A DNA stretch of 64,000 nucleotides from Micromonospora sp. WMMD1102 (lineage in GTDB: Bacteria; Actinomycetota; Actinomycetes; Mycobacteriales; Micromonosporaceae): assembly GCF_029626265.1 (NCBI RefSeq), contig NZ_JARUBN010000001.1, positions 744,001 to 808,000 on the forward strand, read 5' to 3'. Shown here one piece after another: positions 33,288 through 57,097 of the stretch. The stretch's first letter is position 1; the number at the start of each line of letters is the position of its first letter. A model generated the notes under the pieces. That model searched no databases and was not told where the DNA came from. It worked only from the letters and a program-made list of their open reading frames with translations. Position numbers and translations under genes: made by a program.

Positions 33288-34019
33288 TCAGTGCGGGGCT
33301 TTGCGGGCCGGCCGGGTGAGCTGGGCGGTCAGCAGTCGGGGTGCTTCGGCGAGTGAGGGGCCGTACCAGGTGAGGTGTCGTCCGGAGACCAGGGCGCAGG
33401 GGGTGTCGGGGAATGCCTCGGGGCCGTCAGTGGGAGAGAACGGGTAGGGCTCGTCGGGCAGTACGACCAGGTCGGGTGCTGCGGCGCGCAGGTCGTCGAG
33501 GGTCGGCCGAGGGTACCGGTCGGAGGTGTCGTCGTAGAGGTTGCGTAGGCCGAGCCGGAGTAGCACGTCGGAGGTGAAGGTGTCGCCGCCGGCAACGATC
33601 CAGGGGCGCCGCCAGACTGGAACGATGACGGTGCGTGGCGGGATGGCCGGGGTGACGGCGGCCCAGGCGGCGCGGGCCTGTGCCAGCCACTCGGGCTCCT
33701 GACTGGTGCCGAGGTCTCGCAGCAGGTCGGCGAGTTCGTCGAGCGCCTGGTCGACGGTGCGGGGGTAGGTGAGCCGGACACGTACCCCGGCCGCCTCGAT
33801 CGCCTCGGCGTCGGAGCGCTGGTTCTCCTCGACGTTCATGAGTACGACGTCGGGGTGCAGGGCGAAAATGCGGTCGAGATCCGGGTACTTGCTGCCGCCG
33901 ACGCGGGGCACGTCCAGTCCGGCGGGGTGGGTGCAGTAGTCGGTGGCGCCGACGAGGAGCCCGGGCAGGGTGGCCGCGACGGCTTCGGTCAGCGACGGGA
34001 CCAGGGACACCACTCGCAT
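33288..34019 (-). CDS. Helical-backbone metal receptor (BtuF-like) without signal peptide
   Basis: This 243-residue protein of the cluster A-II binding fold starts directly with MRVVSLVPSLTEAVAATLPG, the mature-type N-terminus of BtuF, and has no signal peptide or lipobox. Later motifs are GGSKYPDLDRIFALHPDVVLMNVEENQ, RRPWIVAGGDTF and YPRPTLDDLRAAAPDLVVLPDEPYPF. Such cytoplasmic versions are often annotated as cobalamin-binding proteins; their role is unknown. It stands next to the cobalamin island and is transcribed in the same direction as the capture-protein gene behind it, but a strong hairpin separates the two. Confidence 0.75.
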   Translation of the reverse strand: MRVVSLVPSLTEAVAATLPGLLVGATDYCTHPAGLDVPRVGGSKYPDLDRIFALHPDVVLMNVEENQRSDAEAIEAAGVRVRLTYPRTVDQALDELADLLRDLGTSQEPEWLAQARAAWAAVTPAIPPRTVIVPVWRRPWIVAGGDTFTSDVLLRLGLRNLYDDTSDRYPRPTLDDLRAAAPDLVVLPDEPYPFSPTDGPEAFPDTPCALVSGRHLTWYGPSLAEAPRLLTAQLTRPARKAPH

Positions 34020-34061
34020 CGCTGTTCCTCCTGTCCGCGCTGGTGCCGGCCTATTCTGGCC

Positions 34062-34101
34062 GGTGCCGCGAGCCCACGCCCGGAGCGGGGCTCGCGGCAC
34101 C
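34062..34101 (-). terminator. Strong hairpin after the minus-strand capture-protein gene
   Basis: GGTGCCGCGAGCCC pairs with GGGCTCGCGGCACC (14 bp) across an 11- to 12-base loop. It lies 58 bases past the stop codon of the 34.2-35.6 kb gene. No U-tract is evident, as is usual in actinomycetes. Confidence 0.65.
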
Positions 34102-34158: not shown

Positions 34159-35574
34159 TCACGAACCGTAACGCAGGTGGACGACGTCGCCGACGGTGAT
34201 GGTTCCGCCGCGGGTGGCGCTCGTCGGGCTGCCGCCGTCGCGGGACATCTTCCAGGTGGTGGTGCCGGTGTTGGCGAGTCCGTTGATCGCGGTGATCGTG
34301 CCGGTGCCCGAGCTGGGGGTGACGCTGGTGACGCAGCCGGCTGGCGCGGCGCTGGTCGCGGCGGCGGTCAGGACGGTGCCGAGCGTCGTAGTGGCGGCGG
34401 TCGGGGTGAGGGTGACCGCGCAGGGCAGGACGGTGGTGCCGTTGTCGACGACGAGGGTGATCTTCGCCGGGGTGCCGGCGGTGAATCCGCTCGCCGCGAC
34501 CCATCTCGGGGCGCCGGCCGTGACCGGGGTGGGCGGTGCGGCGGTGAAGCCGCCGCCGCCGAGGGCGCGGACGGCGTCGACGGAGGCGTACCCGGAAGGG
34601 CTGGTGTCCGACGGCAGGTACTTGAAGCCGCCGCTGGACAGTTGCTGGGCGCGGAGGAAGTCGATCGGGGTGCGCCCGGCGGGGGTGGTGAAGTCGGCGC
34701 CCTGGCTCGGGATGCCGCAGGCGTTGAGGCCGGAGACGGCCCAGCCGTTGGAGTCGGTGTTCGCCCCGAACATGGAGTTGAACGCGCCGGTGGTGTTGAC
34801 CAGTTTGCCCTTGAGGAATGTCTTCGCCTGGACCACGTCGGCGTCGGTGTTCGGGACTCCGGCCGCGCAGAGGGCGGCCATGGCGGCGCCGGTCATGTCG
34901 ATGTCACTGGGCGCGGCGAGCTGAGACGGGTTGCCCTCGGCCTGGCTGTAGTTCCAGCCGCCGTCGTTGTGCTGGTTGTTGCGGATCCGGGTGACGGACA
35001 GGTCGAGCAGCCGTTGCGGGATCCGGGCGCTACCGGCCTGGGTCTTGGCCCCGGCGAGGGCGAGGACCGCGAAGACGGTGCCGTTGAAGTTCGCCGGTGG
35101 GCCGTAGTAGCCGGTGGTGCCGGTCTGCCAGTAGCCGACGACGTCGGCGATGAGGTTGCGGGAGGCGGAGACGCGGGCGGGGTCGATGCCGGCGGCGTAG
35201 GCGTTGAGGATGCCGCGTTCGTAGTCGGTGACGACGGGTGAGCCGCCGGGCCAGGAGACGGCGGACAGGTGGGTCTGGTACGCGGTGCGGGCGTTCTTGC
35301 TGGGGTCGCCGCCCGGGTACACGTCGACCGGGTGGGTGCCGGCGGCGGCGAAGGCGCTGAACGCCCATTCCAGGGACAGGCCGGCGCCGGCGTAGCTGCC
35401 GTCGGCGGCTTGCAGGGTTTTCAGGTACGCGACGCCGTTGTTCTTGGCCGTGGTGATCTGGGCCGGTGTGGACGTCGCGGCGGCCGGCGTGGCCACTGCC
35501 ACGACCAGTGCGGTGGCGGCCAGCGCGGTGGCGGCCAGTGCGGCCAGGGTGAGAGCAGGGCGCTTGCGGCGCAT
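34159..35574 (-). CDS. Secreted transcobalamin/intrinsic-factor-like protein, alpha barrel plus C-terminal beta domain
   Basis: This 471-residue exported protein is preceded by GGAGGA. The signal peptide (1-34) ends ATPAAATS. Residues about 40-370 form prenyltransferase/squalene-oxidase-type repeats: NNGVAYLKTLQAADGSYAG, then RIRNNQHNDGGWNYSQ, then IDFLRAQQLSSGGFKYLP. The last 95 residues form a separate beta domain ending GGTITVGDVVHLRYG, which resembles the C-terminal beta domain (DUF4430 fold) of transcobalamin. Eukaryotic B12 carriers have exactly this alpha-then-beta order. The gene stands behind a cobalamin riboswitch and divergent from a second gene of this kind. B12 binding is inferred from fold and control, not shown. 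Confidence 0.7.
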   Translation of the reverse strand: MRRKRPALTLAALAATALAATALVVAVATPAAATSTPAQITTAKNNGVAYLKTLQAADGSYAGAGLSLEWAFSAFAAAGTHPVDVYPGGDPSKNARTAYQTHLSAVSWPGGSPVVTDYERGILNAYAAGIDPARVSASRNLIADVVGYWQTGTTGYYGPPANFNGTVFAVLALAGAKTQAGSARIPQRLLDLSVTRIRNNQHNDGGWNYSQAEGNPSQLAAPSDIDMTGAAMAALCAAGVPNTDADVVQAKTFLKGKLVNTTGAFNSMFGANTDSNGWAVSGLNACGIPSQGADFTTPAGRTPIDFLRAQQLSSGGFKYLPSDTSPSGYASVDAVRALGGGGFTAAPPTPVTAGAPRWVAASGFTAGTPAKITLVVDNGTTVLPCAVTLTPTAATTTLGTVLTAAATSAAPAGCVTSVTPSSGTGTITAINGLANTGTTTWKMSRDGGSPTSATRGGTITVGDVVHLRYGS

Positions 35575-35689
35575 CGGGTTCCTCCAGGTCGGGGCGCGAC
35601 TCGGCCCCGAACCGCACCCGGACCGGACGGTGACGGGCGGCGGACTGCGAGGCGGGGCCGGACCCATGGGCGCGTGGGACGGATACCGC

Positions 35690-35830
35690 AGCTGGTACAT
35701 CGCCGCGTGGGTGTTCGGGCTCGGATGGTCACCCACCCCTACCGTTGCGCGTCAGCCCCGGACTTTGACCGGGTTCCCCCACACGTCGACGGCGGTGACG
35801 CTACGACAACGATCGACGTCGCGCTGTTAT
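35690..35830 (-). promoter_or_regulatory. Cobalamin riboswitch, compact type (minus strand)
   Basis: Read on the minus strand: GTGGGGGAACCCGGT, CAAAGTCCGGGG, CTGACGCGCAACGGTAG, and later GAGCCCGAACACCCAC, which closes on the first segment (GTGGG with CCCAC). These are the conserved core elements of the cobalamin family in the right order. The peripheral arms of the long class are missing. It lies about 120 bases before the secreted capture protein. Confidence 0.85.
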
Positions 35831-35869
35831 CCAGCCGACATCGGCGGGCGATTGACGCTGGCAAGACCA

Positions 35870-35990
35870 TTGTGTTGCGATGAAGTGCTCCAGCACCCAG
35901 GGGAAGCCGGTCAAATCCCGGCACTGGCCCGCAGCCGTAGGTTCCGCACCGTCGGGACGAGTCGGATTACCTGGCTGGAGATGCGTCAGC
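35870..35990 (+). promoter_or_regulatory. Cobalamin riboswitch, compact type (plus strand)
   Basis: Core elements: CCAGGGGAAGCCGGT, CAAATCCCGGC, CTGGCCCGCAGCCGTAG, and GAGTCGGATTACCTGGCTGG, which pairs back to CCAGCACCCAGG. It is set back to back with the minus-strand riboswitch, about 40 bases apart, so two divergent promoters must overlap between them. It controls the surface-anchored capture protein and probably the ECF operon behind it. Confidence 0.85.
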
Positions 35991-36080
35991 GTCGTCGAGG
36001 TCACGATGCGGGTACCGCACCGGGAAAGGCACCGGGCGGCGGCCGCGTCTACGCCGCTCACACCCCTGGAAGAGCCGCCC

Positions 36081-38780
36081 ATGCCGTCCCTCACCCGCCG
36101 ATGGTCCCGCCTCTGGGCCGCCGTCACCGCACTGCTCACCCTCGGCGTGACCGGGGTGGCGGTGGCGACCGTGGCCGCCGCCGATCCGATCGAGGCGTGC
36201 ACGCCGACCAGCGGCGCGGTCGTCGCCGTCGACTTCCGTCCGTGGGACGGTCAGGTGCTGCGGGGCTGCGACGCGACCCCGACGACCGGCTTCGACCTGT
36301 TGCACGAGGCCGGGTTCACCACGGCAGGCACGGCACACGACGGGCCGGGCTTCATCTGCCGGATCGGTAACGCGGCTTTCGACGGCGGCACCCAGTACCC
36401 GACGCCGGAGCGGGAGGCGTGCCAGCTCACCCCGCCCGCGACCGCGTACTGGTCGTACTGGTACGCCCCGCCGGGGCAGGACGGGTGGACGTACAGTCCG
36501 CTCGGTGCGATGGCGAAGGTGCCGGGGCCGGGGGAGGTGCAGGCGTGGGTCTACGGCGGCACCGACATCGGTGGTACGACAGGGAGGCCGACGTTCACCC
36601 CGGACGAGGTCCGAGCCGCCGGCCCCACGCCGTCTCCCACCGTCTCCCCGACTGCCGGTCCCGGCGGGCCGGGCGCCCCGCCGACCGAGGCGCAGATCGC
36701 CGCCGCCTCGTCCTACCTGGTGGGGAAGCTGACCGACGGTGACCATGTCTACAACCCGGATGGGCAGTTCGTCGACCACACCCGCAGCATCGTGGTCGCG
36801 ACGGCGCTCGCCGCCTCGGGCGGGCAGGACCCGACCCTGACGAAGATGCGCGACTACCTTGCCGCGCATGTGGAGGCGGCGGTCCTCCCCGACGGTGCCG
36901 ACGGGCTGCCCAACCAGTTCAACGCGGCCAACCTCGCGCTCCTGGTCACCATCACCGGCGGCGACCCGCATGACGTCGGCGGTCGAGACCTGTTGGCGGT
37001 GCTCACCGATCGGGTGTGTACGGCGGCCGACGCGGGCGCGGGCTGCACCGCGGCCGGGGACTTCGCCGGCTCGTACGCCCCGGTGACGCACGCGTTCGCG
37101 CTGCTCGCCCTGCGCCGCGCCGGGGTGACTCCACCGGCGGCCGCCTTCGAGCGGCTGTTGCAGTGGCAGTGCGCCGGGGGTGGGTTCGCCGACTCGCTGA
37201 TCGCGCCCGGTGACCCGTGCACACCGGATCCGGCGAACACCGGTGCGGCACTGCTTGCCCTGTCCGTACTCGGCGGGCACGATAGCGAGGTCACGGCCGC
37301 GAAGGCGTACCTGACGGGGGCGCAGCAGGCCGACGGCGGCTACCTGCCCTATGCCGGTGCCGGGGCGTCGGACAGCTACACCACCGCGATGGCGGCGCAG
37401 GGGCTACTCGCGGTCGGGGCGGCGGAGCCGGTCGCCGCGGCGCGCGGTTTCCTCGCCGCCCGGACGGCCGCCGACGGCGGCCTGAGCCCGGATGCGACGG
37501 TGACCGAGTCGGACCTGGTCGCGACCTCGGGCGCGCTGCCGACCCTGGCCGGGCAGAATCTCGCCACGCTGACGCATCCGCCGGGTGGGGAGCCGCCGCA
37601 GGGTCCGACACCGGATCTGGCCAAGGGTGTGGCGTGGCTCGTCGCCCCGACGCAGCTCGTCGACGGCCGCTACTACGAATCGTTCCCCGGCTTCCCCGAG
37701 TTCGGGCTGACGATCGACGGCGCGTTCGCGCTGGCCGCCGCCGGTCTCGACGACGCCAAGCTGCGGGCGATCACCGATTTCATCCGCAGCGGCGGCAAGG
37801 TCGGCGACAGTGAGTTCACCGTCGACAGTTGGCTGGGGATCGGCACCGAGTTTCCGTCCGGCGGCGCGATCGGCAAGGTCGCGCTCCTCGCCCAGGTCAC
37901 CGGCTACGACCCGGGCACCTTCGGCGGCCACGACCTGATCACCGCCCTGCACGACATCACCTGCACCACGGCCGACCCGGCGACCGGCTGCGCCGCCGCC
38001 GGGAACTACCGCAACGCGCCGTCGGTGTTCGCGCAGGTCCTGGGCATCATCGCGCAACTGCGGGCCGGGCGGACGCAGGACGCCGCCGCCCCGATCGAGT
38101 TCCTCAAGAGTCTCCAGCGGGCAAACGGCGCGTTCCCGAGCCTGATCCCGGCCGAGGGCAGCGGTGACGAGGTCGACAGTACGGCGATGGCCGCGATGGC
38201 CCTGGCGATGCTCCCCGACGACCCGGATGCCGTTACCGCCGTCGACAGGGCCCTCGGCTGGATCGCCAGCCAGCAACAGGCCGACGGCGGGTTCCCGGGC
38301 GCGGCCGGCATCTCCACCAACTCCACCGCGTTGGCGGTCCAGGGGATGACGCTGCGGCGCGGGACCTACAGCAACCAGATCGGTAAGGCGCTGGCGTTCC
38401 TGGCCGGGCAGCAGAACCTTGACGGCGGGTTCAATGTCGCCGCCGACGGGCAGGCAGGCTCCGACGTACGCGCCTCGACCCAGGTCGTCGGCGGCGCGAC
38501 CGGGATCTCGTTCGGCACGCTGCTACGGGACGTACACGACCTCGACCCTTCCCCGACGCCGTCCCCGTCGCACACCCCGTCCCCGTCGACCTCACCAACC
38601 CCGTCACCGTCGGTATCCAGCGAATCGAGCGCGACGCCGCCGCCGGACGCGATGCCGGTGACGGGCGCTTCGATCGTCTCGCTGACCCTCGGCGCGCTCT
38701 TCCTGATCATCGCCGGTGTGGTCCTGCTCGTCCTCGCCCGCCGCCGCCGGACCACCATCGACACGGCAGGCCGGTCATGA
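36081..38780 (+). CDS. Surface-anchored capture protein: beta domain, two alpha-repeat domains, sorting-type tail
   Basis: This 899-residue exported protein has a signal peptide (1-34), then a beta domain (35-155) with four Cys and the motif TAYWSYWYAPPGQDGWTYS. After a Pro/Thr linker come two prenyltransferase/squalene-oxidase-type repeat domains (about 190-500 and 515-800; repeats such as QQADGGYLPYAGAG and QQQADGGFPGAAG). A Ser/Pro/Thr stalk leads to MPVTG, a hydrophobic span and RRRR, the layout of a sortase-type or membrane anchor. Compared with transcobalamin, the domain order is reversed and the alpha part doubled. A role in B12 capture at the cell surface is inferred from fold, riboswitch and the ECF genes that follow with a 4-base overlap. 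Confidence 0.72.
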   Translation: MPSLTRRWSRLWAAVTALLTLGVTGVAVATVAAADPIEACTPTSGAVVAVDFRPWDGQVLRGCDATPTTGFDLLHEAGFTTAGTAHDGPGFICRIGNAAFDGGTQYPTPEREACQLTPPATAYWSYWYAPPGQDGWTYSPLGAMAKVPGPGEVQAWVYGGTDIGGTTGRPTFTPDEVRAAGPTPSPTVSPTAGPGGPGAPPTEAQIAAASSYLVGKLTDGDHVYNPDGQFVDHTRSIVVATALAASGGQDPTLTKMRDYLAAHVEAAVLPDGADGLPNQFNAANLALLVTITGGDPHDVGGRDLLAVLTDRVCTAADAGAGCTAAGDFAGSYAPVTHAFALLALRRAGVTPPAAAFERLLQWQCAGGGFADSLIAPGDPCTPDPANTGAALLALSVLGGHDSEVTAAKAYLTGAQQADGGYLPYAGAGASDSYTTAMAAQGLLAVGAAEPVAAARGFLAARTAADGGLSPDATVTESDLVATSGALPTLAGQNLATLTHPPGGEPPQGPTPDLAKGVAWLVAPTQLVDGRYYESFPGFPEFGLTIDGAFALAAAGLDDAKLRAITDFIRSGGKVGDSEFTVDSWLGIGTEFPSGGAIGKVALLAQVTGYDPGTFGGHDLITALHDITCTTADPATGCAAAGNYRNAPSVFAQVLGIIAQLRAGRTQDAAAPIEFLKSLQRANGAFPSLIPAEGSGDEVDSTAMAAMALAMLPDDPDAVTAVDRALGWIASQQQADGGFPGAAGISTNSTALAVQGMTLRRGTYSNQIGKALAFLAGQQNLDGGFNVAADGQAGSDVRASTQVVGGATGISFGTLLRDVHDLDPSPTPSPSHTPSPSTSPTPSPSVSSESSATPPPDAMPVTGASIVSLTLGALFLIIAGVVLLVLARRRRTTIDTAGRS

Positions 38781-39739
38781 TCCGCCGTATCGGCGTCGCC
38801 GTCGCCGCGTTGGCCGTGGTGCAGGCGGCGGCGGTCATCGCCCCGGCGTCCGCGTACGCGGCGCCGATGCCGTTGGGCCAGTGCACCACCCGCTCCGGGG
38901 TGATCCTCGCCGTCGACTTCAGCCGGTGGGGCGGTCCGCTGCTGCGCTCCTGCGGCACCACCCCGACGACCGGCTACCAGCTGCTCAACCAGGGTGGTTG
39001 GAAGACCGCCGGCACCGGACACGACGGGCCGGCGTTCATCTGCCGGATCGGGTACTCCGGCTTCCGCAACGGCACCCAGTACCCGCCGCCGAGCGAGGAG
39101 CGGTGTGTGCTGACTCCGCCGGCGTCGGCGTACTGGTCGTACTGGCATGCCGACCCTGGCACGAACACGTGGGAGTACAGCCAGCTCGGGGCGATGAGCT
39201 ACAAACCGAAGCCGGGCAGTGTCGATCTGTGGATCTTCGGGGGAACCGACATCGGCGGTACGAAGGGCCGGCCGACGTTCAGCCCGGACAGCGTCCGGGC
39301 CCACAACACCGCCCCGGTCCCGAATCCACCGCCGGCCCCGGCTCCGACCACCAACCGGCCCGCCCCCGGCGGCAACCCACCTCCGGCGCAGGCGCCCGCA
39401 CCACCCGCGACAGCCGACGACGCCACCACGGTGCCGGTGCCGACCGGTCCGACCGGCACCCTCGGCGGGACCCCGCCCGCCACGGTGTGGCCGTCCGGCG
39501 CACCGAGCCCGACGGCCTCGAACAGCGGCGCCGGGCCGACCGACACCGAGGGCAGCGGCGGCCCGACGGTGGTCGACGCCGTCCCCACCCGGGCCGCACC
39601 CGCCGACCGTGGCTCGGCCGGCCCGCTGCTGATCACCCTCGGCGTACTCGCGCTGCTCGGGAGCGGCGGCGCGGTACTCGGCTGGCGTCGCCGCCGTACC
39701 GGCTCGGACGCCGCGCCACCGGTGGAACCGGCACCGTGA
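38777..39739 (+). CDS. Membrane-anchored beta-domain protein (transcobalamin C-domain-like)
   Basis: This 320-residue exported protein overlaps the preceding gene (ATGA). After the signal peptide (1-29) a beta domain (about 33-150) closely resembles that of its neighbour: FICRIGYSGFRNGTQYP, ASAYWSYWHADPGTNTWEYS, with the same Cys pattern. Then come a Pro/Ala/Thr-rich stalk of about 130 residues, one membrane span (LLITLGVLALLGSGGAVLGW) and a basic tail. It may act as a docking or transfer partner that hands ligand from the larger capture protein to the ECF importer encoded next. Confidence 0.72.
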   Translation: MIRRIGVAVAALAVVQAAAVIAPASAYAAPMPLGQCTTRSGVILAVDFSRWGGPLLRSCGTTPTTGYQLLNQGGWKTAGTGHDGPAFICRIGYSGFRNGTQYPPPSEERCVLTPPASAYWSYWHADPGTNTWEYSQLGAMSYKPKPGSVDLWIFGGTDIGGTKGRPTFSPDSVRAHNTAPVPNPPPAPAPTTNRPAPGGNPPPAQAPAPPATADDATTVPVPTGPTGTLGGTPPATVWPSGAPSPTASNSGAGPTDTEGSGGPTVVDAVPTRAAPADRGSAGPLLITLGVLALLGSGGAVLGWRRRRTGSDAAPPVEPAP

Positions 39740-39785
39740 CCCGCGCTCGGTTCAGCACGCGGCCGCGCGTGGCGCCCGATCCGGC

Positions 39786-40922
39786 GTGAACACGGCGAGT
39801 CTTCGCGCCGCGCGGCTGCCCCGAGGGCTGCATCCGGTCGCCTGGTGGCTGTGGGCACTCGCCCTGGCCACGGCGGCCAGCCGCACCAGCAACCCGCTGC
39901 TGCTGGCCCTCATTTTCGCCGTACTCGGCTTCGTCGTCACCGTCCGCCGCACCGACGCGCCCTGGGCCAGGGCGTTCCACTACTACCTGATCCTCGCGCT
40001 GTCGGTCATCGTCATCCGGGTCGCGTTCCGGATCGTCTTCGCCACCGGCATCTCCCCCGAGGACCACATCCTGTTCCGGCTGCCGCATGTGCCGACCCCC
40101 GACTGGTATGCCGGAATCCAGATCGGCGGCCCGGTGTCGCTGGAGGCGACGCTGTCTGCCGCGCTGGACGGGCTCCGGTTGGCCTGCCTGCTGTGCTGCA
40201 TCGGCGCGGCGAACAGCCTCGCCAACCCGAAACGGGCGCTGAAGGTGCTGCCCGGCGCTCTCTACGAACTCGGCGTGGCCGTCACCGTCGCACTCAGCGT
40301 CGCACCGCAATTGGTGGAGAGCGTGCAGCGGGTCGCCCGGGCCCGCCGGCTGCGCGCCGGCCGCTCGCGGGGGCTGCGGGCGGTACGCGCGATCGCGCTG
40401 CCGGTGCTGCACGACGCGCTGGACCGGTCCCTGCGGCTGGCCGCCGCGATGGACTCCCGAGGCTACGGCCGGACCGGCACCGCCACCCGCACCTCCCGGC
40501 GCCTCACCGGCGCCCTGATGCTCACCGGCATGGCCGGCCTCTGCGTCGGCGTCTACGGCCTGCTCGATCCGAGCGTGCCCCGGCCCGTCAGCCTCGGCGC
40601 CCTGGCCACCGGCATCGTTCTGAGCGTCATCGGCCTGGCCGTCGGTGGGCGGCGGGTCTCCCGCAGCCGCTACCGTCCCGACCCGTGGCAGTGGCCGGAA
40701 TGGGTCGTCGCTGGCTGCGGCATTGTCACCGCCGTCGTCCTCACCGCCGGGACCGGTTACGACCCCGCCGAGCTGAACCCCGGCCTGTACCCGCTGACGT
40801 GGCCGACCCTGCCCCTGCTACCCACCGCCGCGATCCTCCTCGCGGCGCTCGCCGCGTTCGCCGCACCCCCACCACCACGGCCCAGACCGATCGCCGTTCC
40901 CGCCGCCGGAGCCCACCCGTGA
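39786..40922 (+). CDS. ecfT: ECF transporter T component (EcfT/CbiQ family)
   Basis: This 378-residue membrane protein couples the ATPase to the substrate-binding S protein. Several N-terminal spans are followed by the cytoplasmic coupling helices; the Ala-Arg-Gly-type motifs appear as RARRLRAG and AAAMDSRGYG. A GTG start is used. A hydrophobic C-terminal part with a Pro-rich tail is longer than in typical EcfT. It overlaps the ATPase gene by four bases. Confidence 0.85.
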   Translation: MNTASLRAARLPRGLHPVAWWLWALALATAASRTSNPLLLALIFAVLGFVVTVRRTDAPWARAFHYYLILALSVIVIRVAFRIVFATGISPEDHILFRLPHVPTPDWYAGIQIGGPVSLEATLSAALDGLRLACLLCCIGAANSLANPKRALKVLPGALYELGVAVTVALSVAPQLVESVQRVARARRLRAGRSRGLRAVRAIALPVLHDALDRSLRLAAAMDSRGYGRTGTATRTSRRLTGALMLTGMAGLCVGVYGLLDPSVPRPVSLGALATGIVLSVIGLAVGGRRVSRSRYRPDPWQWPEWVVAGCGIVTAVVLTAGTGYDPAELNPGLYPLTWPTLPLLPTAAILLAALAAFAAPPPPRPRPIAVPAAGAHP

Positions 40923-42538
40923 TCCGCTTCGACCACGTCAGCATCACCTACGCCGACAGCCCCCGACCGGCGCTGCGCGACGTCACCCTCATGATCGACG
41001 AGGGCGAACTGTGCCTGGTCGTCGGGCACACCGGCTCCGGCAAGTCGACCCTCCTCGGCGCGATCAACGGCCTCGTCCCGCACTTCACCGGCGGCACCCT
41101 CACCGGCCGGGTCACCGTCGCCGACCGGTCGACCGCCGAGCACCCGCCGCGCGAGTTCGCCGAACTCGTCGGCGTCGTCGGACAGGATCCGGTCGCCGGG
41201 TTCGTCACCGACACCGTCGAGGAGGAACTCGCCTACGGCATGGAACAACTCGCCCTCACCCCGACGGTGATGCGGACCCGGGTCGAGGAGACCCTCGACC
41301 TGCTCGGCCTCGCCGACCTGCGCCACCGGGGCCTGCACGAACTCTCCGGCGGCCAGCAGCAGCGGGTGGCGATCGGCGCCGCCCTCACCGCCCACCCCCG
41401 GGTACTCGTCCTCGACGAACCCACCTCCGCCCTGGATCCGACCAGCGCCGAGGACGTCCTCGCCACCATCACCCGCCTCGTGCACGACCTCGGCATCACC
41501 GTCGTCCTCGCCGAACACCGCCTCGAACGCGTCATCCCGTACGCCGACCGCCTCATCCGCCTCGACGGCGACGGCACCGCCCGTTACGGCGACCCGGCCA
41601 CCCTCCTTGCTGAAAGCACCGTCGCCCCACCGATCGTGCACCTCGGCCGCCTCGCCGGGTGGGCACCGCCACCGCTGTCCGTCCGCGACGCCCGCCGACA
41701 CACTCCCACCCTGCGGCAGCGGCTACCCGCCACACCACCGGTCCCACACCGTCCCGCATGCGCCGACGGCGAGGTGACGCTGACCGCCAGGGGAGTGGTG
41801 GTCCGGCACGGCCCGGTCGTCGCCGTTCGCGGCGCCACCCTCGATCTGCACGCCGGCGAGGTGGTGGCGTTGATGGGCCGTAACGGATCGGGCAAGTCGT
41901 CCCTGCTGTGGGCGTTGCAGGGCGCCGGCCGCCGCGCCGGCGGCACCGTCCGCACCGGCGGCAGCGACCCGGCCAAGCTGTCGCCCGTCGAAGCGCGACG
42001 CCTGGTCGGGCTGGTGCCACAGACCGCCACCGACCTGCTCTACCTCGACACCGTCGGCGCCGAACTCGACCAGGCCGACCGCGACGGCGCCACCCCCGGA
42101 ACCGCCCGGCGGCTACTCGACGACCTCGCTCCCGGCATCGCCGACACCGCACACCCGCGCGACCTCTCCGCCGGACAGCAGTTGGCGTTGGTCCTGGCCA
42201 TCCAACTGGCCGTCACACCCCGGGTGGTGCTGCTCGACGAACCGACCCGAGGACTCGACTACACCGCGAAAGCCGCCCTGGTCCGCACCCTGAACCAACT
42301 CGCTGGGCAACGACACGCCATCGTCGTGGCCACCCACGACGTCGAGTTCGCCACCGCCGCCGCCGACCGGGTCGTGGTGATGGCTGACGGCGACGTCGTC
42401 ACCGACGGCCCCGCCCCGACGGTCCTGACCGCGTCACCGACCTTCGCCCCACAGATCGCGAAGATCCTCGCCCCGCTGCCGTACCTCACCGTCGGCCAGG
42501 TCGCCGCCGCCCTCGACACACCCCAGGCACAGCCGTGA
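40919..42538 (+). CDS. ECF transporter fused A-A' ATPase
   Basis: This 539-residue protein carries two ABC ATPase domains in one chain. Domain 1: Walker A GHTGSGKST, signature LSGGQQQR, Walker B VLVLDEPTSALDP. Domain 2: GRNGSGKSS, DLSAGQQLALVL, VVLLDEPTRGLD. Separate EcfA and EcfA' subunits are usual in Firmicutes; fused forms are common in actinobacteria. GTG start overlapping the T-component stop; its stop overlaps the S-component start. It drives uptake by the T/S pair. Confidence 0.9.
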   Translation: MIRFDHVSITYADSPRPALRDVTLMIDEGELCLVVGHTGSGKSTLLGAINGLVPHFTGGTLTGRVTVADRSTAEHPPREFAELVGVVGQDPVAGFVTDTVEEELAYGMEQLALTPTVMRTRVEETLDLLGLADLRHRGLHELSGGQQQRVAIGAALTAHPRVLVLDEPTSALDPTSAEDVLATITRLVHDLGITVVLAEHRLERVIPYADRLIRLDGDGTARYGDPATLLAESTVAPPIVHLGRLAGWAPPPLSVRDARRHTPTLRQRLPATPPVPHRPACADGEVTLTARGVVVRHGPVVAVRGATLDLHAGEVVALMGRNGSGKSSLLWALQGAGRRAGGTVRTGGSDPAKLSPVEARRLVGLVPQTATDLLYLDTVGAELDQADRDGATPGTARRLLDDLAPGIADTAHPRDLSAGQQLALVLAIQLAVTPRVVLLDEPTRGLDYTAKAALVRTLNQLAGQRHAIVVATHDVEFATAAADRVVVMADGDVVTDGPAPTVLTASPTFAPQIAKILAPLPYLTVGQVAAALDTPQAQP

Positions 42539-43338
42539 CCGCCGTACAGGTCCCGGCCCGGGCGACCGCCACGATCGTGATGGCGTCGTTCGTCGGCCTC
42601 GTCGCCTTCCTCTGGCCGTTCGTCGTCGCCCCCGGCACGTTCGGCGCCGCCGAAACCCCACCACTGATGTTCGGCGCCCTCCTCGTCCTCGTCCTCGCCG
42701 TCGTCTTCGCCGAGATCGCCGACCGACGCATCGACGCCAAAGCCCTCGCCATGCTCGGCGTCCTCTCCGCCATCAACGCCGCCCTACGGCCCCTCGGCGC
42801 CGGCACCGCCGGAATCGAAACAGTGTTCTTCATCCTCGTCCTCGCCGGACGGGTCTTCGGCCCCGGATTCGGGTTCGCACTCGGCTGCACCTCCCTGTTC
42901 GCCTCCGCCCTCCTCACCGGCGGCGTCGGACCGTGGATGCCATACCAGATGTTCGGCTGCGCCTGGGTCGGCATGCTCGCCGGCCTACTACCCAAAGCAA
43001 GCGGCAAGGCGGAGATCGCGCTGCTGGCCGGCTACTCGGCGGTCAGCGGCTACCTGTTCGGGTTCATGCTCAACCTGTCCTTCTGGCCGTTCTCCCTCGA
43101 CCCCGACAGCTCCATCGCCTACCAACCCGGCCTGCCCCTGCTCGAACAGTTCCAGCGATACTTCGCCTTCTTCACCGTCACCTCACTCGGCTGGGACACC
43201 GGCCGCGCCGTCACCACCGCGATCCTCGTCACCCTCACCGGCCCAGCGGTCCTCGGTGCCTTCCGCCGCGCCGCACGGCGGGCGAACTTCCACACCACAC
43301 CGACCTTCGAACACACCCGGCAGGGCGCCGACCGGTGA
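42535..43338 (+). CDS. ECF transporter S component, predicted cobalamin
   Basis: This 267-residue membrane protein has six or so spans and the short cytoplasmic N-terminus typical of S components. AKALAMLGVLSAINAALRPLG and GFALGCTSLFASALLTGGVGPWMPYQMFGCAWVGM are characteristic of the ECF S family. It is the last gene of the T-A-S set behind the capture proteins. Riboswitch control of the operon points to cobalamin, or possibly a precursor or cobalt. It resembles the predicted CbrT-type cobalamin S proteins, though that assignment rests on context. Confidence 0.82.
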   Translation: MTAVQVPARATATIVMASFVGLVAFLWPFVVAPGTFGAAETPPLMFGALLVLVLAVVFAEIADRRIDAKALAMLGVLSAINAALRPLGAGTAGIETVFFILVLAGRVFGPGFGFALGCTSLFASALLTGGVGPWMPYQMFGCAWVGMLAGLLPKASGKAEIALLAGYSAVSGYLFGFMLNLSFWPFSLDPDSSIAYQPGLPLLEQFQRYFAFFTVTSLGWDTGRAVTTAILVTLTGPAVLGAFRRAARRANFHTTPTFEHTRQGADR

Positions 43339-43359
43339 GCGCAGTGACTGTCTCGCCCG

Positions 43360-43378
43360 AGCCGCCGGTCAGGCGGCC
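43360..43378 (+). terminator. Hairpin after the ECF operon
   Basis: GCCGCC-GGTCA-GGCGGC forms a short GC stem 22 bases after the S-component stop. It probably ends the ECF transcript before the next riboswitch. The stem is short, so termination may be partial. Confidence 0.45.
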
Positions 43379-43512
43379 CGGCCGTTGCGACCCGCAGGGG
43401 ATGACGGCGTACTCGCAGCTGTCGGCGCCGCGTCGGTGAGACGATCCGCACACTCCGGGCTGGAGGCCCCTTGCGAAGTCCACAACGTGGGACGGCGGCG
43501 GCTATCATCGGC

Positions 43513-43735
43513 GTCAGCGCTGGTTCGCCCCGCCCGTGCAGGCGGGGCGTCGTAAGAGGGAACCCGGTGTGAATCCGGGACTGCCCCGCAGCGGTGAGCA
43601 GGAACGACCGCCGTCAACGGCACTGGGCGCACCCGCGCCTGGGAAGCGACGGCCAGTAGGAGACCGGACCCTGGTCCGGACGTGCCCGCGAGTCCGAAGA
43701 CCTGCCCGCGCCGCACACACCGACCGGGTGTGTGC
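43513..43735 (+). promoter_or_regulatory. Cobalamin riboswitch, long class-I type, before thioesterase gene
   Basis: Core elements in order: GGGAACCCGGTG, GAATCCGGGACTG, CCCCGCAGCGGTGAG, a long peripheral arm and the B12 box AGTCCGAAGACCTGCC. A hairpin (GCACACACC with GGTGTGTGC) follows at once and can serve as the expression-platform element. It is closely similar to the riboswitches before nrdA and metE, which suggests duplication. Confidence 0.93.
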
Positions 43736-43862
43736 TGCCGCCGGCCTCGCGGGTGGGCCGGGCGGACCGCGTACCCGTCCGGTACCGCCTACCACGGCGC
43801 CCGACGGTCGGTGTGGTTTGTCCTTCCTGCCGCAGGTCACGACCACCTTCGGGGGACAACCC

Positions 43863-44372
43863 GTGCGCGACACGATTCTGCCCAGCCGCCCACCGTCCGC
43901 ATCGCAGCTGACCCTGTCGCAGATCATGGACCAGCACCACACCAACCTGATGGGCACCGTGCACGGCGGCCGGATCCTGAACCTGATCGACGCCGTCGCC
44001 GGCGTGGTCGCCGCCCGCCACTCCGAAGGCCCGGCCGTCACCGCCGCCATCGACGAAACCGCCTTCCTTCAGGCGGTACGCGTCGGCGACGTCGTCCACG
44101 TCGAGGCCCGGATCACCTGGGCCGGCCGGTCGTCGATGGAGATCGCCGTCACCGTCACCGCCGACCGGTGGGACCGCGCCGTTCCACCCACCCTCGTCGC
44201 CACCGCCCACCTGGTGATGGTCGCCGTCGACGACAACGGACAACCCCGACCGGTCCCCGCACTACTGCCGGAAACTGACGACGACCGCCGCCGCTACCAG
44301 GAGGCGCAGATCCGCCGCGAGCACCGCCTGACGCTGCGCCGCGCCCTCGCCAGCCAGGCCGGCCTGGCGTGA
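43863..44372 (+). CDS. Acyl-CoA thioesterase (hotdog fold) under B12 riboswitch control
   Basis: This 169-residue cytoplasmic hotdog-fold protein of the YciA/BFIT-type acyl-CoA hydrolase group has the motif QIMDQHHTNLMGTVHGGRI followed by LIDAVAGVVAARHS, and VRVGDVVHVEARITWAGRSSMEI in the central strand region. Start GTG at 43863. The only recognisable control is the cobalamin riboswitch directly upstream. A thioesterase is not a known B12-linked gene. It may hydrolyse methylmalonyl-CoA or propionyl-CoA that build up when the B12-dependent mutase fails; this is inference. Substrate range cannot be read from sequence. Confidence 0.85.
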   Translation: MRDTILPSRPPSASQLTLSQIMDQHHTNLMGTVHGGRILNLIDAVAGVVAARHSEGPAVTAAIDETAFLQAVRVGDVVHVEARITWAGRSSMEIAVTVTADRWDRAVPPTLVATAHLVMVAVDDNGQPRPVPALLPETDDDRRRYQEAQIRREHRLTLRRALASQAGLA

Positions 44373-44474
44373 GCGAGTTCGGGTACGTGCCGGCCGGAAC
44401 CCTCGTCGGCTACCTGGCCATGATCACCTTGACGACACGAGCCGGGATGGGCACACTGACTGCAACATCATGAT

Positions 44475-44600
44475 ACCTGTGCGTTGATGGGGGAAGTCCG
44501 GTACAAGCCGGCGCTGGCCCGCAACGGTAGGCGGCGAACATACGCCGCGAGCCCGAGTACCCATCGACGTACCGCAAGGTTCCCCCACCCGTCGTGGCCC
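44475..44600 (+). promoter_or_regulatory. Cobalamin riboswitch, compact type, before split capture genes
   Basis: Core: GTTGATGGGGGAAGTCCGGT, ACAAGCCGGCG, CTGGCCCGCAACGGTAG, a hairpin GGCGGCG with CGCCGC, then GAGCCCGAGTACCCATCGAC. The last segment pairs with GTTGATGGG at the start. No long peripheral arm or standard B12 box is present. It lies 70 bases before the alpha-domain protein. Confidence 0.85.
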
Positions 44601-44667
44601 ACGGGTCGGAGCCGCCCGGGAGCGGTCCCGGGTCGCGTCGACCGTCGGGCCGGAAAGGCACCGATTG

Positions 44668-45708
44668 ATGGCCGCCCTCCTCCGGCACCGCACCCGCACT
44701 CTCCTCACCGGCGTACTCGCCACTCTCACCCTGTGCATAGCTGTCGCCCCACCGGCCGCCGCGCAATCCACCCTCAACCGTGTCGACGCCGCCGCCGGAT
44801 GGCTCGCCCGCCAGATGGTCGACGGCGAACGGTTCGAGGTCGTCTTCGACGGCGTCGCCTACCCCGATCAGGGACTCACCCTCGACGCGATCTTCGCCTT
44901 CGCCGCCGCGAAGGTCGCCGACACGAACGCCGCCAGCGCCACCGCCTGGTTGGCGCAACCGGCGGTCACCACCGGCTACATCGGCGACGGCACCGAGGCG
45001 TACGCCGGAGCGACCGCCAAACTCGCCCTCGGCGTACAGGTCCGCGGCCTGAATCCGGCAGCGTTCGGCGGTGTCGACCTGATCGCCCGCCTCCACACCC
45101 TGATGGCACCAACCGGTAGGTTCACCGACCGGTCCGCCTTCGGCGACTTCAGCAACATGTTCAGCCAGTCCTTCGCGGTGCTGGCATTCGACCGGGCGGG
45201 CGAAGCACCCCCGGCGGCGGTGGCCTTCCTGGCCGGCGCCCGCTGCCCCGACGGCGGCTTCCCCCTGCTATTCGCCCAGGCCACCTGCGTCAGCGACGTG
45301 GACGCCACCGCACTGGCGATCCAGGCACTCCTCGCCGCCGACCGTCCCCTCGTCGCCCAGGCGGCGGCTCGATGGCTGGTCTCCGTACAGGCCGACGACG
45401 GGTCGTTCACCGCGAACGGGGTGGCCAACGCCAACAGCACCGGACTGGCCGCGCAGGCGCTCGCCGCTGCCGGTCGGGCCGTGCCGTGGCTGCACGCCCG
45501 TCAGTACCTGACCAGCCTCCAACAGACCTGCACCGCACCCGCCGTGGACCGGGGCGCGATCGCCTACACCGACGGCGGGTACGACCCCAGCACCGCGACC
45601 CGCGCCACCGCCCAAGCCGTCTCCGGACTGGCGGGGGTGGGCTTCGCCACCCTGTCCGCCGCCGGCTCCCGTCCGGCCGCCCCGACCCTGGCGTGTCCGC
45701 ACCGATGA
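44668..45708 (+). CDS. Secreted alpha-barrel protein (intrinsic-factor alpha-domain-like)
   Basis: This 346-residue exported protein has GGAAAGG before the ATG. The signal peptide (1-32) ends PAAAQS. The rest is a single repeat domain of the prenyltransferase/squalene-oxidase type: VDAAAGWLARQMVDGERFE, GARCPDGGFPLLFA, VSVQADDGSFTANG, YDPSTATRATAQAVSGLAG. No beta domain is attached; the next gene encodes one. The pair therefore looks like a transcobalamin split into two chains. Riboswitch control supports a cobalamin role. Confidence 0.72.
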   Translation: MAALLRHRTRTLLTGVLATLTLCIAVAPPAAAQSTLNRVDAAAGWLARQMVDGERFEVVFDGVAYPDQGLTLDAIFAFAAAKVADTNAASATAWLAQPAVTTGYIGDGTEAYAGATAKLALGVQVRGLNPAAFGGVDLIARLHTLMAPTGRFTDRSAFGDFSNMFSQSFAVLAFDRAGEAPPAAVAFLAGARCPDGGFPLLFAQATCVSDVDATALAIQALLAADRPLVAQAAARWLVSVQADDGSFTANGVANANSTGLAAQALAAAGRAVPWLHARQYLTSLQQTCTAPAVDRGAIAYTDGGYDPSTATRATAQAVSGLAGVGFATLSAAGSRPAAPTLACPHR

Positions 45709-45728
45709 CCACCACGGGAGGTTCACCA

Positions 45729-46205
45729 ATGCCCATCCGGATCCGCCGCCACCTCGCCGCGCTGATCGCCATCATCGTCGTCGCGGCCGGGCTGGTCGCC
45801 GCCGACCCGACGCCCCGCCCGGCGCACGCCGCTGCGTGCAGCCCCGGCACCGGGGTCACCGTCGTCGTCGACTTCACCGCCTTCGGCCTCGGCGTGCAGA
45901 CCGCGTGCTACCTCGGCGACCCGCCCACCGGCCTGGCTGCCCTGCAAGGCGCCGGCTACACCGTCACCGGCACCCAACGCTGGGGTCTCGCGTTCGTCTG
46001 CCGCATCGACGGACGACCGCTACCGGCGGCCGAACCGTGCGTCAACACGCCCCCGGCCAGCGCCTACTGGTCCTACTGGCACGCCCCGCCCGGCGGCACC
46101 TGGTCCTACAGCACCCTCGGCGCCACCAGCTACAACCCCGCCCAGGGCACCGTCGAAGGCTGGCGATTCGGGTCCGGCCAGGCACCCTCGATTTCCCCGC
46201 CGTGA
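45729..46205 (+). CDS. Secreted single beta-domain protein (transcobalamin C-domain-like)
   Basis: This 158-residue exported protein starts 20 bases after the alpha-domain gene (GGAGG ahead). After the signal peptide (to about residue 35) the domain reads CSPGTGVTVVVDFTAFG, ending ASAYWSYWHAPPGGTWSYS and GTVEGWRFG. Four Cys match those in the beta domains at 36.2 and 38.9 kb. It has no anchor, so it would be released or bind its alpha partner. It probably caps the ligand, as the beta domain does in transcobalamin. Confidence 0.7.
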   Translation: MPIRIRRHLAALIAIIVVAAGLVAADPTPRPAHAAACSPGTGVTVVVDFTAFGLGVQTACYLGDPPTGLAALQGAGYTVTGTQRWGLAFVCRIDGRPLPAAEPCVNTPPASAYWSYWHAPPGGTWSYSTLGATSYNPAQGTVEGWRFGSGQAPSISPP

Positions 46206-46250: not shown

Positions 46251-46555
46251 GTCACCACCATCCGATGCCTCGGACCAGGACGGGGTGGGAATCCGGCACG
46301 ACGCTCGGTCGGCGGACGGTCATCGTCGAGGGGTTCCTGCCACTACGGCGGGTCAAGGGCCAGGGGACGACCGGGCCACGTCGGGTTCCGCTTCTGACCG
46401 GTCACCGGCCCGCCGCCGACCCGTCCGCGTCGCCGATGGCGCGCGCCCGACTCCCACCGCGCTGGGGAAGTCGGGCGCAAATCCTGCACCGTGACACGCC
46501 CGACACAGCATCTGGTGTTTCCTCCTTTCGTCGTGCCCATATATGGTGTTGTCCG
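46251..46555. other. Intergenic stretch before the nrdA riboswitch
   Basis: About 300 bases. An AT-richer segment near 46515-46556 (CCTTTCGTCGTGCCCATATA) is the likely promoter for the nrdAB transcript. No gene is seen. Confidence 0.45.
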
Positions 46556-46762
46556 TAGCTGGTTCGACCGTCAATCCATGGTGGTCGAGGCAAGAGGGAA
46601 CCCGGTGGGAATCCGGGACTGCCCCGCAGCGGTGAGTGGGAACGACCGCCGTCAACGAAGCACTGGACCCTCGGGTCTGGGAAGCGACGGCCAGTAGGGA
46701 TGAGTGCGACGCCCGCGAGTCCGAAGACCTGCCAGCGCGCCGCACGCGTCGCGTGCGGCGGT
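46556..46762 (+). promoter_or_regulatory. Cobalamin riboswitch, long class-I type, before nrdAB
   Basis: Core: GGGAACCCGGTGGGAATCCG, GACTGCCCCGCAGCGGTGAG, peripheral arm GGGAACGACCGCCGTCAACG, B12 box AGTCCGAAGACCTGCC, then a hairpin CGCCGCACGC with GCGTGCGGCG. B12 control of class Ia nrdAB is known from Streptomyces. Repression when B12 is plentiful fits the presence of a B12-dependent class II enzyme elsewhere in the genome. Confidence 0.95.
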
Positions 46763-46878
46763 CGAAGGCCGCGCGGGACGGCCGACGCCATCAGCCGGAC
46801 CGTCGGCAGGTATGCCGATGCCCGGTGGCGTCCCTCCGCGCGTCCGTCGACCTTCCGGACAGGTGTGAGGAGGGGGAC

Positions 46879-49269
46879 ATGGCCGCGACGCAGGAGCAGG
46901 TTGTGCCGGATCAGGCGGTGCCGGAGCAGCGCCGGCACGTGATGCGGGTCCGCAAGCGTAACGGCGACACCGAGCCGGTGGACGTCAACAAGATCGTCAG
47001 GGCGGTGGAACGCTGGGTCGCCGACCTGGACGAGGTGGATCCGCTGCGGGTGGCGACCAAGACGATCAGCGGGTTGTACGACGGGGCGACCACGGCCGAG
47101 TTGGACAAGTTGTCGATCCAGACGGCGGCCGAGCTGATCGGCGAGGAGCCCCAGTACTCGAAGCTGGCCGCGCGGCTGCTGGCCGCGTACGTGGACAAGG
47201 AGGTTCGCGGTCAGGGGGTGGCCAGCTTCAGCCAGTCCATCCGGTACGCGCACGGTCTGGGGTTGATCGGGGACGAGACGGCCGCGTTCGTGGCCCGCAA
47301 CGCCCGCAAGCTCGACGACGCCGTCGACCCGGACGGCGATCGGCGGTTCGAGTACTTCGGGCTGCGTACGGTCGCGGACAGGTATCTGCTGCGGCATCCG
47401 GATACGCGGCTGGTGGTGGAGACGCCGCAGTACTGGCTGCTGCGGGTCGCCTGTGGACTGTCACAGACACCCGGTGAGGCGATCGGCTTCTATCGACTGA
47501 TGTCGTCGCTGGCGTACCTGCCGAGTTCGCCGACGCTGTTCAACTCGGGCACCCGGCACACCCAGATGTCGTCGTGTTTCCTGGTCGACTCGCCGCGCGA
47601 CGAGCTCGACTCGATCTACGAGCGGTACCACCAGGTGGCGAAGCTGTCGAAGTTCTCCGGCGGGATCGGCATCTCCTGGTCCCGGGTCCGTGGTCGCGGC
47701 GCGTTGATCCGGGGCACCAACGGGCGGTCGAACGGCATCGTCCCGTTCCTCAAGACGCTCGACGCCGGGGTGGCCGCGGTCAACCAGGGTGGCCGGCGCA
47801 AGGGCGCGGCCTGCGTCTACCTGGAGCCGTGGCACCCGGACATCGAGGAGTTCCTGGAACTGCGGGACAACACCGGCGAGGACGCCCGGCGCACCCACAA
47901 CCTGAACCTGGCGAACTGGATCCCGGACGAGTTCATGCGCCGAGTGGAGGCGGACGGCGACTGGTCGTTGATCGACCCGTCCGACGCGCCCGAGTTGCCC
48001 GACCTGTTCGGGGAGGCGTTCGACGAGGCGTACCGGGCGGCGGAGAAGAAGGCCGTCCGGACGGTGAAGGCCCGGGACCTGTACGGGCGGATGATGCGCA
48101 CCCTGGCCCAGACCGGCAACGGGTGGATGACGTTCAAGGACGCCTCGAACCGGCTCTCCAACCAGACCGGCTCCCCAGGCAACACGATCCACCTGTCCAA
48201 CCTGTGCACGGAGATCCTGGAGGTGAACAGCGACGCCGAGACCGCCGTGTGCAACCTGGGATCGATCAACCTGGGCGCGCACGTCACCGCAGACGGCGTG
48301 GACTGGGAGAGGCTGCGGGCGACGGTCCGCACGGCGGTGGTGTTCCTCGACCGGGTGATCGACATCAACTACTACCCGGCGGAGCAGGCGGCGGCGTCGA
48401 ACCCCCGGTGGCGGCCGGTCGGGCTCGGGCTGATGGGGTTGCAGGACGCGTTCTTCACGCTGCGTCTGCCGTTCGACTCACCGCAGGCGCGAGAGCTGTC
48501 GACCCGGGTACAGGAAGAGATCTTCCTGACCGCGCTGGAGACCTCGGCCCAGCTGGCCGAGCGGTTCGGCCCGCATCCGGCGTACGCCGAGACCCGCGCG
48601 GCGCGGGGCGAGTTGCACCCGGACCTGTGGGGTGCCGAACCCACCCAGGTGGAGCGGTGGGCCGCGCTGCGGTCCGCGATCGCCGCGCACGGCCTGCGCA
48701 ACTCGCTGTTGGTGGCGATCGCGCCGACGGCGACGATCGCGTCGATCGCCGGCTGCTACGAGTGCATCGAGCCGCAGGTCTCCAACCTGTTCAAGCGCGA
48801 GACGATGTCCGGGGAGTTCCTCCAGATCAACACCTACCTCGTGCGGGAGCTGAAGTCACGAGGGCTGTGGACCGCCGCGATCCGCGAGCAGATCAAGCGC
48901 GCGGAGGGCTCCGTACAGGGCATCGCCGACCTTCCCGGCGACGTACGGGAGCTGTTCCGCACGGCGTGGGAGCTGCCGCAGCGGGCCCTGGTCGACCTGG
49001 CCGCCGCCCGTGCCCCGTACATCGACCAGTCGCAGTCGCTGAACCTGTTCATGAGCGCGCCGACCATCGGCAAGCTCTCCTCGATGTACCTGTACGCCTG
49101 GAAGTCCGGGCTGAAGACCACCTACTACCTGCGGTCGCGTCCCGCGACCCGGATCCAGCAGGCCACCGTCGCCGTCGCCCCGGTGGTCAAGCCGATCGTC
49201 GCAATGAGCGACGACGAGGCGTTGGCCTGTTCCCTGGAAAACCCCGAGAGCTGCGAGGCCTGCCAGTGA
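46879..49269 (+). CDS. nrdA: Ribonucleotide reductase class Ia, large subunit
   Basis: This catalytic subunit reduces ribonucleotides to deoxyribonucleotides without cobalamin. It has 796 residues, with an N-terminal ATP-cone (about 20-105: VRKRNGDTEPVDVNKIVRAVERW), active-site Cys in QMSSCFLVDS, the thiyl-radical Cys in HLSNLCTEILEV (NLCTE), the second redox Cys in AVCNLGSINL, and the C-terminal shuttle pair ESCEACQ. Start ATG 46879 follows GAGGAGGGGG; the longer open frame runs into the riboswitch and is not coding. The gene overlaps nrdB by four bases. Confidence 0.97.
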   Translation: MAATQEQVVPDQAVPEQRRHVMRVRKRNGDTEPVDVNKIVRAVERWVADLDEVDPLRVATKTISGLYDGATTAELDKLSIQTAAELIGEEPQYSKLAARLLAAYVDKEVRGQGVASFSQSIRYAHGLGLIGDETAAFVARNARKLDDAVDPDGDRRFEYFGLRTVADRYLLRHPDTRLVVETPQYWLLRVACGLSQTPGEAIGFYRLMSSLAYLPSSPTLFNSGTRHTQMSSCFLVDSPRDELDSIYERYHQVAKLSKFSGGIGISWSRVRGRGALIRGTNGRSNGIVPFLKTLDAGVAAVNQGGRRKGAACVYLEPWHPDIEEFLELRDNTGEDARRTHNLNLANWIPDEFMRRVEADGDWSLIDPSDAPELPDLFGEAFDEAYRAAEKKAVRTVKARDLYGRMMRTLAQTGNGWMTFKDASNRLSNQTGSPGNTIHLSNLCTEILEVNSDAETAVCNLGSINLGAHVTADGVDWERLRATVRTAVVFLDRVIDINYYPAEQAAASNPRWRPVGLGLMGLQDAFFTLRLPFDSPQARELSTRVQEEIFLTALETSAQLAERFGPHPAYAETRAARGELHPDLWGAEPTQVERWAALRSAIAAHGLRNSLLVAIAPTATIASIAGCYECIEPQVSNLFKRETMSGEFLQINTYLVRELKSRGLWTAAIREQIKRAEGSVQGIADLPGDVRELFRTAWELPQRALVDLAAARAPYIDQSQSLNLFMSAPTIGKLSSMYLYAWKSGLKTTYYLRSRPATRIQQATVAVAPVVKPIVAMSDDEALACSLENPESCEACQ

Positions 49270-54107: not shown

Positions 54108-55180
54108 TCACTTGAGCCAGTCGTTGCCGGGCAGCTTGCTGAGCTGTCGGATGTCGAGCGTCGGCGAGACCGATGACTTCGGGGCCACGCCAAAATGCTC
54201 CACCGCTTTGCGTACCCACTCGGCCGCGTCGATGTTGAGAGGGCCGGAGACCCACATGGCGTACGGCAGGTTGACGAACCGTCCATCCTTGACCGCCTTG
54301 AGGTTGCGGGATGCCGGGTTGGCCTTCAGGGTGTCGATCTTCTGTTGGTACGACTGTCCCGGGTAGTCGACGAAGAAGATGACGTCCGGGTTCGAGGCGG
54401 CGAGCCGTTCCCAGCCCACCTCGGTCCAGGTGTCCTTCACGTCGGCGGTGGCGTTGGTGACCCCCGCGGCGTCGAAGATGGCCTGCGGGCCGCCGTACGA
54501 TCCGGAGGTGAAGACGGCGTCGGTCCCGGAGTCGAAGAGGAACGCCGTCGGCTTCTCGCCACTCGTGGGGGCCGCCGCCAGTGTTGCCCGCCGCTTTTCG
54601 ATGTCGGCGACGACGGCGTCCGCGGTCTCGCGGTGGCCGGTCAGCGTACCGACGTTGTGCAGGTCGGTGGTGAGGGCCGTCCACGCGTCCATCGTGCCGC
54701 GGGCGCCGTTGTCCTGCTTGCATGTCTCGCTGAGCAGGTAGGTCTTGATGCCGTGGGTCGTCAGGTCTTCGGGCATCAGGTTGCGGGACTCGCTGAACCC
54801 GTACCCGTAACCGGCGAACATCATCTCCGGCTTGACCGCCAGGACGTTCTCCAAGGTGGGGTACTCCTCCCCGACCTCCTTCAGCTGATCGATCCGGGCC
54901 TCGGGATAGGCGAGCTCTAGTACGTCCCGGTCCTGGTCGATGCCGGTGACGGCGGTCAGTTGGTCGCGTGCGCCGACGGACAGCACGATCGAGATGATGC
55001 CGCCGTCGTACGCGTACAGCCGGGTGACGGGCTTGTCGACACTCACGTCCTGCCCGCAGTTCTGGACGGTGATGGCGCCGCTGGTCGCGCTCGATCCGGC
55101 ATCGCCGGAGGCGCACGCGGTGAGGGTGGACAGGCCGAGCACAAGAGCGGTGAGACGGGTACGGCCGGGCGGAAAGACGG

Positions 55181-55184
<4 letters not shown>
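54108..55184 (-). CDS. btuF: Cobalamin ABC transporter substrate-binding lipoprotein (importer C)
   Basis: This 358-residue cluster A-II binding lipoprotein has the lipobox LTAC (Cys about 24) and the mature start VQNCGQDVSVDKPVTRLYAYD. The middle has TWTEVGWERLAASNPDVIFFVDYPGQ and the end is KLPGNDWLK. It is last but one in a riboswitch-led operon, which makes cobalamin the likely ligand. It is a paralogue of the binding proteins of importers A and B. ATG start overlapping the ATPase stop. Confidence 0.85.
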
Positions 55185-56010
<826 letters not shown>

Positions 56011-56014
<4 letters not shown>

Positions 56015-57045: not shown

Positions 57046-57097
57046 GGTAATACCTCTCGGGTCTGGAGACCCTGATCGCGAGAGTCCACCGACGAGC

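Follow-up and report, generated by a model that had tools for sequence, protein, structure and literature searches.

Candidate vitamin B12 capture and import locus with transcobalamin-like exported proteins and a CbrT-like pump in Micromonospora sp. WMMD1102

Gene organization and riboswitches

Positions 34159-46205 of the analysed stretch of Micromonospora sp. WMMD1102 DNA (64,000 nucleotides, hereafter the window) carry a candidate system for the extracellular capture and import of vitamin B12. Genes for five exported proteins, here called A to E, lie together with the T, A-A' and S components of an energy-coupling factor (ECF) importer in three units, two of them divergent. The leftward unit consists of A alone (34159..35574, minus strand), a 471 aa secreted protein with a signal peptide judged from hydropathy, an alpha-toroid and a C-terminal divergent DUF4430-like beta domain. 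All other genes of the system are on the plus strand. The rightward unit starts with B (36081..38780), an 899 aa surface protein with a signal peptide, a beta domain (~36174-36629), two alpha-toroids (~36675-37604 and ~37605-38489; all borders set by eye), an MPVTG motif and a C-terminal membrane segment. It continues with C (38777..39739), in which a beta domain is followed by a proline-rich stalk and a C-terminal membrane segment, and with the ECF T (39786..40922), A-A' (40919..42538) and S (42535..43338) components. Farther right, D (44668..45708) encodes a secreted single alpha-toroid and E (45705..46205) a secreted beta domain with four conserved cysteines (45, 68, 99 and 112). Four-base overlaps join B to C, A-A' to S and D to E; the GTG start of A-A' overlaps the stop of T, and 46 bases separate C from T.

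These coordinates and this gene order had been given correctly by the first-pass annotation of the sequence. Its proposal of five secreted or anchored proteins also agrees with our hydropathy scan, from which export and membrane segments are predicted: an N-terminal hydrophobic segment is found in all five proteins and a C-terminal one also in B and C. The AYWSYW signature assigned to the group is present in B, C and E, while A does not carry it. Plantactinospora proteins are among the nearest to E and D, with 88-97% identity.

Three cobalamin riboswitches had been proposed for these genes. The one before A (35689..35818, minus strand) scores 36.9 bits with RF00174, above the cut-off of 31.5. 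Two short ones on the plus strand fall slightly below it, namely that before D-E (44468..44582, core pattern at 44494) with 31.0 bits and the core before B-C-ECF (35901..35971) with 29.6 bits. A strong riboswitch at 43504-43723 (85.9 bits) does not directly precede D. The gene that follows it, in the gap separating the ECF operon from D-E, encodes a 4HBT hot-dog thioesterase (PF03061); the region extends to 44372, with a gene start perhaps near 43926. A similar thioesterase is seen in two (L096 and L134) of the 72 homologous loci described next.

The 72 homologous loci come from named genomes, mostly Streptomyces; each reaches 5 kb only, and many end within T. A strict pattern of the aptamer core, tried first, was found before A in 60/72 and towards B in 1/72. 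A second pattern was discarded as badly written (9/72 and 4/72). With a loosened pattern 61 of the 72 loci have the core within 1200 nucleotides upstream of A, and 69 have it on the other strand facing B; the background elsewhere in those loci is 0.025 per 1200-nucleotide window. This third version was relaxed after the earlier outcomes and has its own background, and the counts are thus post hoc. Rfam, applied to 13 of the loci hand-picked across taxa, gave 18 RF00174 matches above cut-off in 11 of them and none above cut-off in L102 and L114.

The pump and the domains of the exported proteins

As the first-pass annotation had read, C is followed by an ECF T component (PF02361, 48.2 bits), two fused ATPases forming A-A' (two PF00005 (ABC_tran) domains; TIGR04520 267.8 bits, cut-off 315) and an S component (PF12822, 34.4 bits). 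The single S sequence gave weak matches to folate families, an identity which we rejected because a profile of 33 S sequences (12 from loci with DUF4430) points to CbrT instead: it matches 6fnp_A at 8.3e-21, and folate S components come next at 0.94 and 1.1. 6FNP is ECF-CbrT, which imports cobalamin and cobinamide (PMC5997447), and its chain A is taken as the CbrT chain because of chain length and likeness to S components. By this profile S is a member of the CbrT family. The parts of BtuCDF (FecCD permease, ATPase and binding protein) are not found in this operon, where the ECF parts stand in their place. B12 as the probable substrate is supported independently by the profile match to ECF-CbrT and by the riboswitch linkage in relatives.

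The AlphaFold2 model of E has a confidence score (pLDDT) of 88.1. Transcobalamin, intrinsic factor and haptocorrin are the top structural matches of its beta domain in Foldseek and VIA-align, and the beta fold of E, as modelled, is of the transcobalamin type. The first-pass annotation had named a missing structural match as what would speak against it; for the predicted beta domain of E the match is present, with the animal carriers ranked top. Its suggested searches with PF01122 and PF14478 failed: none of ten window proteins matches PF01122 at E<=1, and PF14478 gives 13.1 bits for A, under the cut-off of 23.8, while E, C and B are unmatched. The link to DUF4430 (PF14478) appears at the profile level. 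The A C-terminus aligns with DUF4430 with an hhalign probability of 91.2, and the E family aligns with it profile-to-profile. The DUF4430 profile was built from 20 of 30 fetched loci; the other ten were excluded because the extracted piece was too short or in the wrong frame. Four of the 20 sequences used belong to genomes in which S has no match. E, C and B also match SCO2322_fam weakly, under the curated cut-off. Some DUF4430 matches fall within much longer open frames, of 851 to 1886 residues (G027, G054, G110, G120 and G142), with several per frame in four of the five.

The alpha-barrel repeats noted in the first reading were recovered in B by PF00432 (50.6 bits) and in D and B by the NCBIfam family SCO2321_fam (108.7 and 110.9 bits, cut-off 300). 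A itself gives weak squalene-cyclase matches, and a profile of its N-terminal part can be aligned with that of D (hhalign probability 97.4). The D profile matches squalene-hopene cyclase at 2.7e-24, plus other toroids, and so does a profile of five toroids from relatives of A; a search of PDB sequences with B alone returned toroid enzymes and one chance match. Judged from these profiles, the toroid fold of the proteins is certain. Kinship to the transcobalamin-type toroid specifically is not shown by them: transcobalamin is absent among the best 60 of 93 D-profile matches and among all 52 of the A-relative profile, and a third toroid profile (A3) did not find it either. The order alpha then beta in one chain is seen in A and in a 566-residue open frame of L048. 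Relatives of D were not found in viral contigs.

Co-occurrence in other genomes

We surveyed 198 genomes of the phylum, the window's own among them; 37 contain the E-type domain and 70 a homologue of S at E<=0.001. When the window's genome is left out, 40 genomes have an S of at least 115 bits. These include all 36 domain-bearing genomes, and four of the 40 are without the domain. Domain and S lie within 5 kb of each other in 30 of the 36 genomes and on different contigs in the other six.

Twenty hand-chosen loci, one of them (L075) picked for S only, were compared by similarity to the window proteins: S and A-A' are present in 20, T in 18, a beta domain in 16 and a toroid in 12. The toroid gene is not always first and stands behind S in L058. 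A cobalamin or adenosylcobalamin (AdoCbl) riboswitch at E<=0.01 is present in 15 of these loci, in six of the 15 above the family cut-off, and is not found at this threshold in L059, L066, L072, L075 and L076. Among the 72 homologous loci a B-type beta domain occurs in 69, C in 63 and T in 56. Homologues of D and E lie next to A in six of the 72, from Dactylosporangium, Kitasatospora and Streptomyces; they share the strand of A in L079 and lie opposite to it in L130, L133, L136, L138 and L148.

In other lineages DUF4430 adjoins the S gene. A riboswitch was found in at least 13 of 34 genomes in the DUF4430 survey (from the best 150 matches listed). Another count, 10 of 13 DUF4430 loci with a riboswitch, was set aside because ten of the 13 had been preselected for an already seen match.

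Interpretation and alternatives

The original reading, exported, B12-regulated, transcobalamin-like proteins coupled to a B12 ECF pump, is supported, and we consider it probable that the locus encodes an extracellular capture and import system for vitamin B12 or related corrinoids. Gene order, riboswitch linkage, the predicted beta fold of E, the relationship of the S component and the co-occurrence in the phylum sample are established here; we infer that the exported proteins bind B12, that alpha and beta parts act jointly, and in which direction B12 is handed over. When B12 is scarce, the cobalamin riboswitches would permit expression. A, D and E would be secreted, with B and C held at the cell surface. 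Toroid and beta domains, on the same chain (A and B) or as partners (D with E), would enclose B12 in the manner of the two-domain transcobalamin, and the loaded carriers would hand it to the CbrT-like S component. The ECF T-A-A' motor would then import B12 for MetH and possibly other B12 enzymes.

The host background fits such an importer. Two MetH genes above cut-off are present in the genome, while CbiC was not found in it and CobI/CbiL gave no match above cut-off. Nine RF00174 matches are found in the whole genome, seven of them inside the window, and others of these seven precede genes named by eye from reading frames: ribonucleotide reductase, metE and a btuCDF-like set. Riboswitch targets and gene content would suit an organism that imports B12 and shifts to B12-free enzymes in need. 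Two ribonucleotide reductase loci adjoin cobalamin riboswitches, at 46543-50324 in the window (named by eye) and at C1:1652469-1652681. The btuC, btuD and btuF-like genes (54108-57141, named by eye), which stand behind a cobalamin riboswitch in the region 54108-57273 (minus strand), would form a second, classical B12 importer in the window. A TroA-like/BtuF-like binding-protein gene (33288-34100, minus strand; PF01497 38.2 bits, NF038402 287.6 bits) lies immediately downstream of A, and its reading frame as listed shows no clear signal peptide. Another btuF-like binding protein is encoded near a riboswitch in L007.

Several results weigh against the capture reading. The Foldseek E-values for transcobalamin with the E model are only 0.039-0.2. 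PF14478 is unmatched in all 76 E-family beta-domain members, and the E-family profile finds nine matches among PDB sequences, mostly HisF-type barrels, with transcobalamin absent. The same profile fails to align with the A C-terminus (hhalign probability 1.6), so that E family and A C-terminus are connected through DUF4430 alone. Sequence searches with the toroids point to terpene cyclases and further toroid proteins, and transcobalamin is absent from the matches listed. Since S is found in 70 of the 198 genomes, many S genes occur without an E-type domain, and the association ignores kinship. Furthermore, ECF S components themselves bind substrate according to PMC5997447, and an extracellular carrier is therefore not strictly required. 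The likeness of the beta domain might also be fold-level convergence in the beta-grasp class, with the B12 link made via the pump alone; an identity of 14-18% to the animal carriers in the aligned part of E and the failure of the E-family sequence profile to find transcobalamin directly would agree with this, which we judge unlikely.

Two further alternatives concern what the exported proteins do. They might catch a B12-related ligand such as cobinamide, a lower-ligand base or cobalt, not B12 itself, for the same pump, and ECF-CbrT is indeed described as transporting cobinamide too (PMC5997447). Rank 14 in the Foldseek list of E is named a putative metal-binding protein, but the S profile is nearest to the B12 transporter. 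A transcobalamin-type two-domain carrier should be better fitted to a corrinoid than to a small base or an ion, and free cobalt would hardly be useful for corrin synthesis in a host without CbiC, which makes this alternative improbable. We give even less credence to surface or wall proteins that are made at low B12 for a task other than binding it, such as adhesion, wall remodelling or an isoprenoid enzyme activity: the best matches of the toroids are squalene-hopene cyclases and toroid folds have many uses, but the beta domain has a predicted transcobalamin fold and is linked to one ECF S family in 30/36 genomes.

Relation to known systems and meaning

The proposed B12 carriers resemble transcobalamin, intrinsic factor and haptocorrin in the predicted fold of the E beta domain, in being exported, in having an alpha-toroid, which A and B themselves contain and the gene adjacent to E supplies (D-E), with the domain order of transcobalamin in A, and in a B12 link through regulation and pump. 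They differ in being bacterial, in that alpha and beta are often separate proteins, in a toroid unrecognised by PF01122, and in B, where one beta domain comes first and two toroids follow. With ECF-CbrT of Lactobacillus delbrueckii the system shares the S family, by profile, and a motor made of ECF T and A-A'. In this locus a single operon, headed by exported carrier genes, encodes T, A-A' and S, whereas L. delbrueckii CbrT shares a single module with other S components (PMC5997447). Bacteroides BtuG, BtuH and BtuJ likewise catch B12 at the surface before a transporter and belong to riboswitch-regulated loci, but they are outer-membrane lipoproteins feeding BtuB TonB-dependent transporters, with BtuJ of the DUF4465 family (PMC13398666). 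The E family differs from DUF4430/3u7z, to which its profile aligns, in its four conserved cysteines and its lack of a PF14478 match. Every match to the NCBIfam SCO2321 and SCO2322 families is under the curated cut-off, and these families are annotated only as 'membrane protein' or 'family protein'. Surface B12 capture in Bacteroides, by other proteins, and ECF-CbrT are already known. A description of the combination was not found in the open-access literature, most subscription journals being outside this scope, and an earlier mention is possible.

We tentatively propose, with somewhat less than even confidence, that the animal B12 carriers have bacterial relatives with separate or fused alpha and beta parts, in which an extracellular clamp serves a dedicated ECF-CbrT pump. 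In that case an ECF importer would have extracellular binding proteins of its own, and the architecture of intrinsic factor and transcobalamin would have a bacterial model and possibly a bacterial origin. If true, bacteria too have B12 catchers like those of blood and stomach, coupled there to a pump and present in many actinobacteria, Streptomyces among them, and protein families without a stated function would gain a role. Binding proteins would be added to ECF transport, in which, as described, the S component itself binds the substrate, and the origin of intrinsic factor and transcobalamin would become testable through small bacterial proteins.

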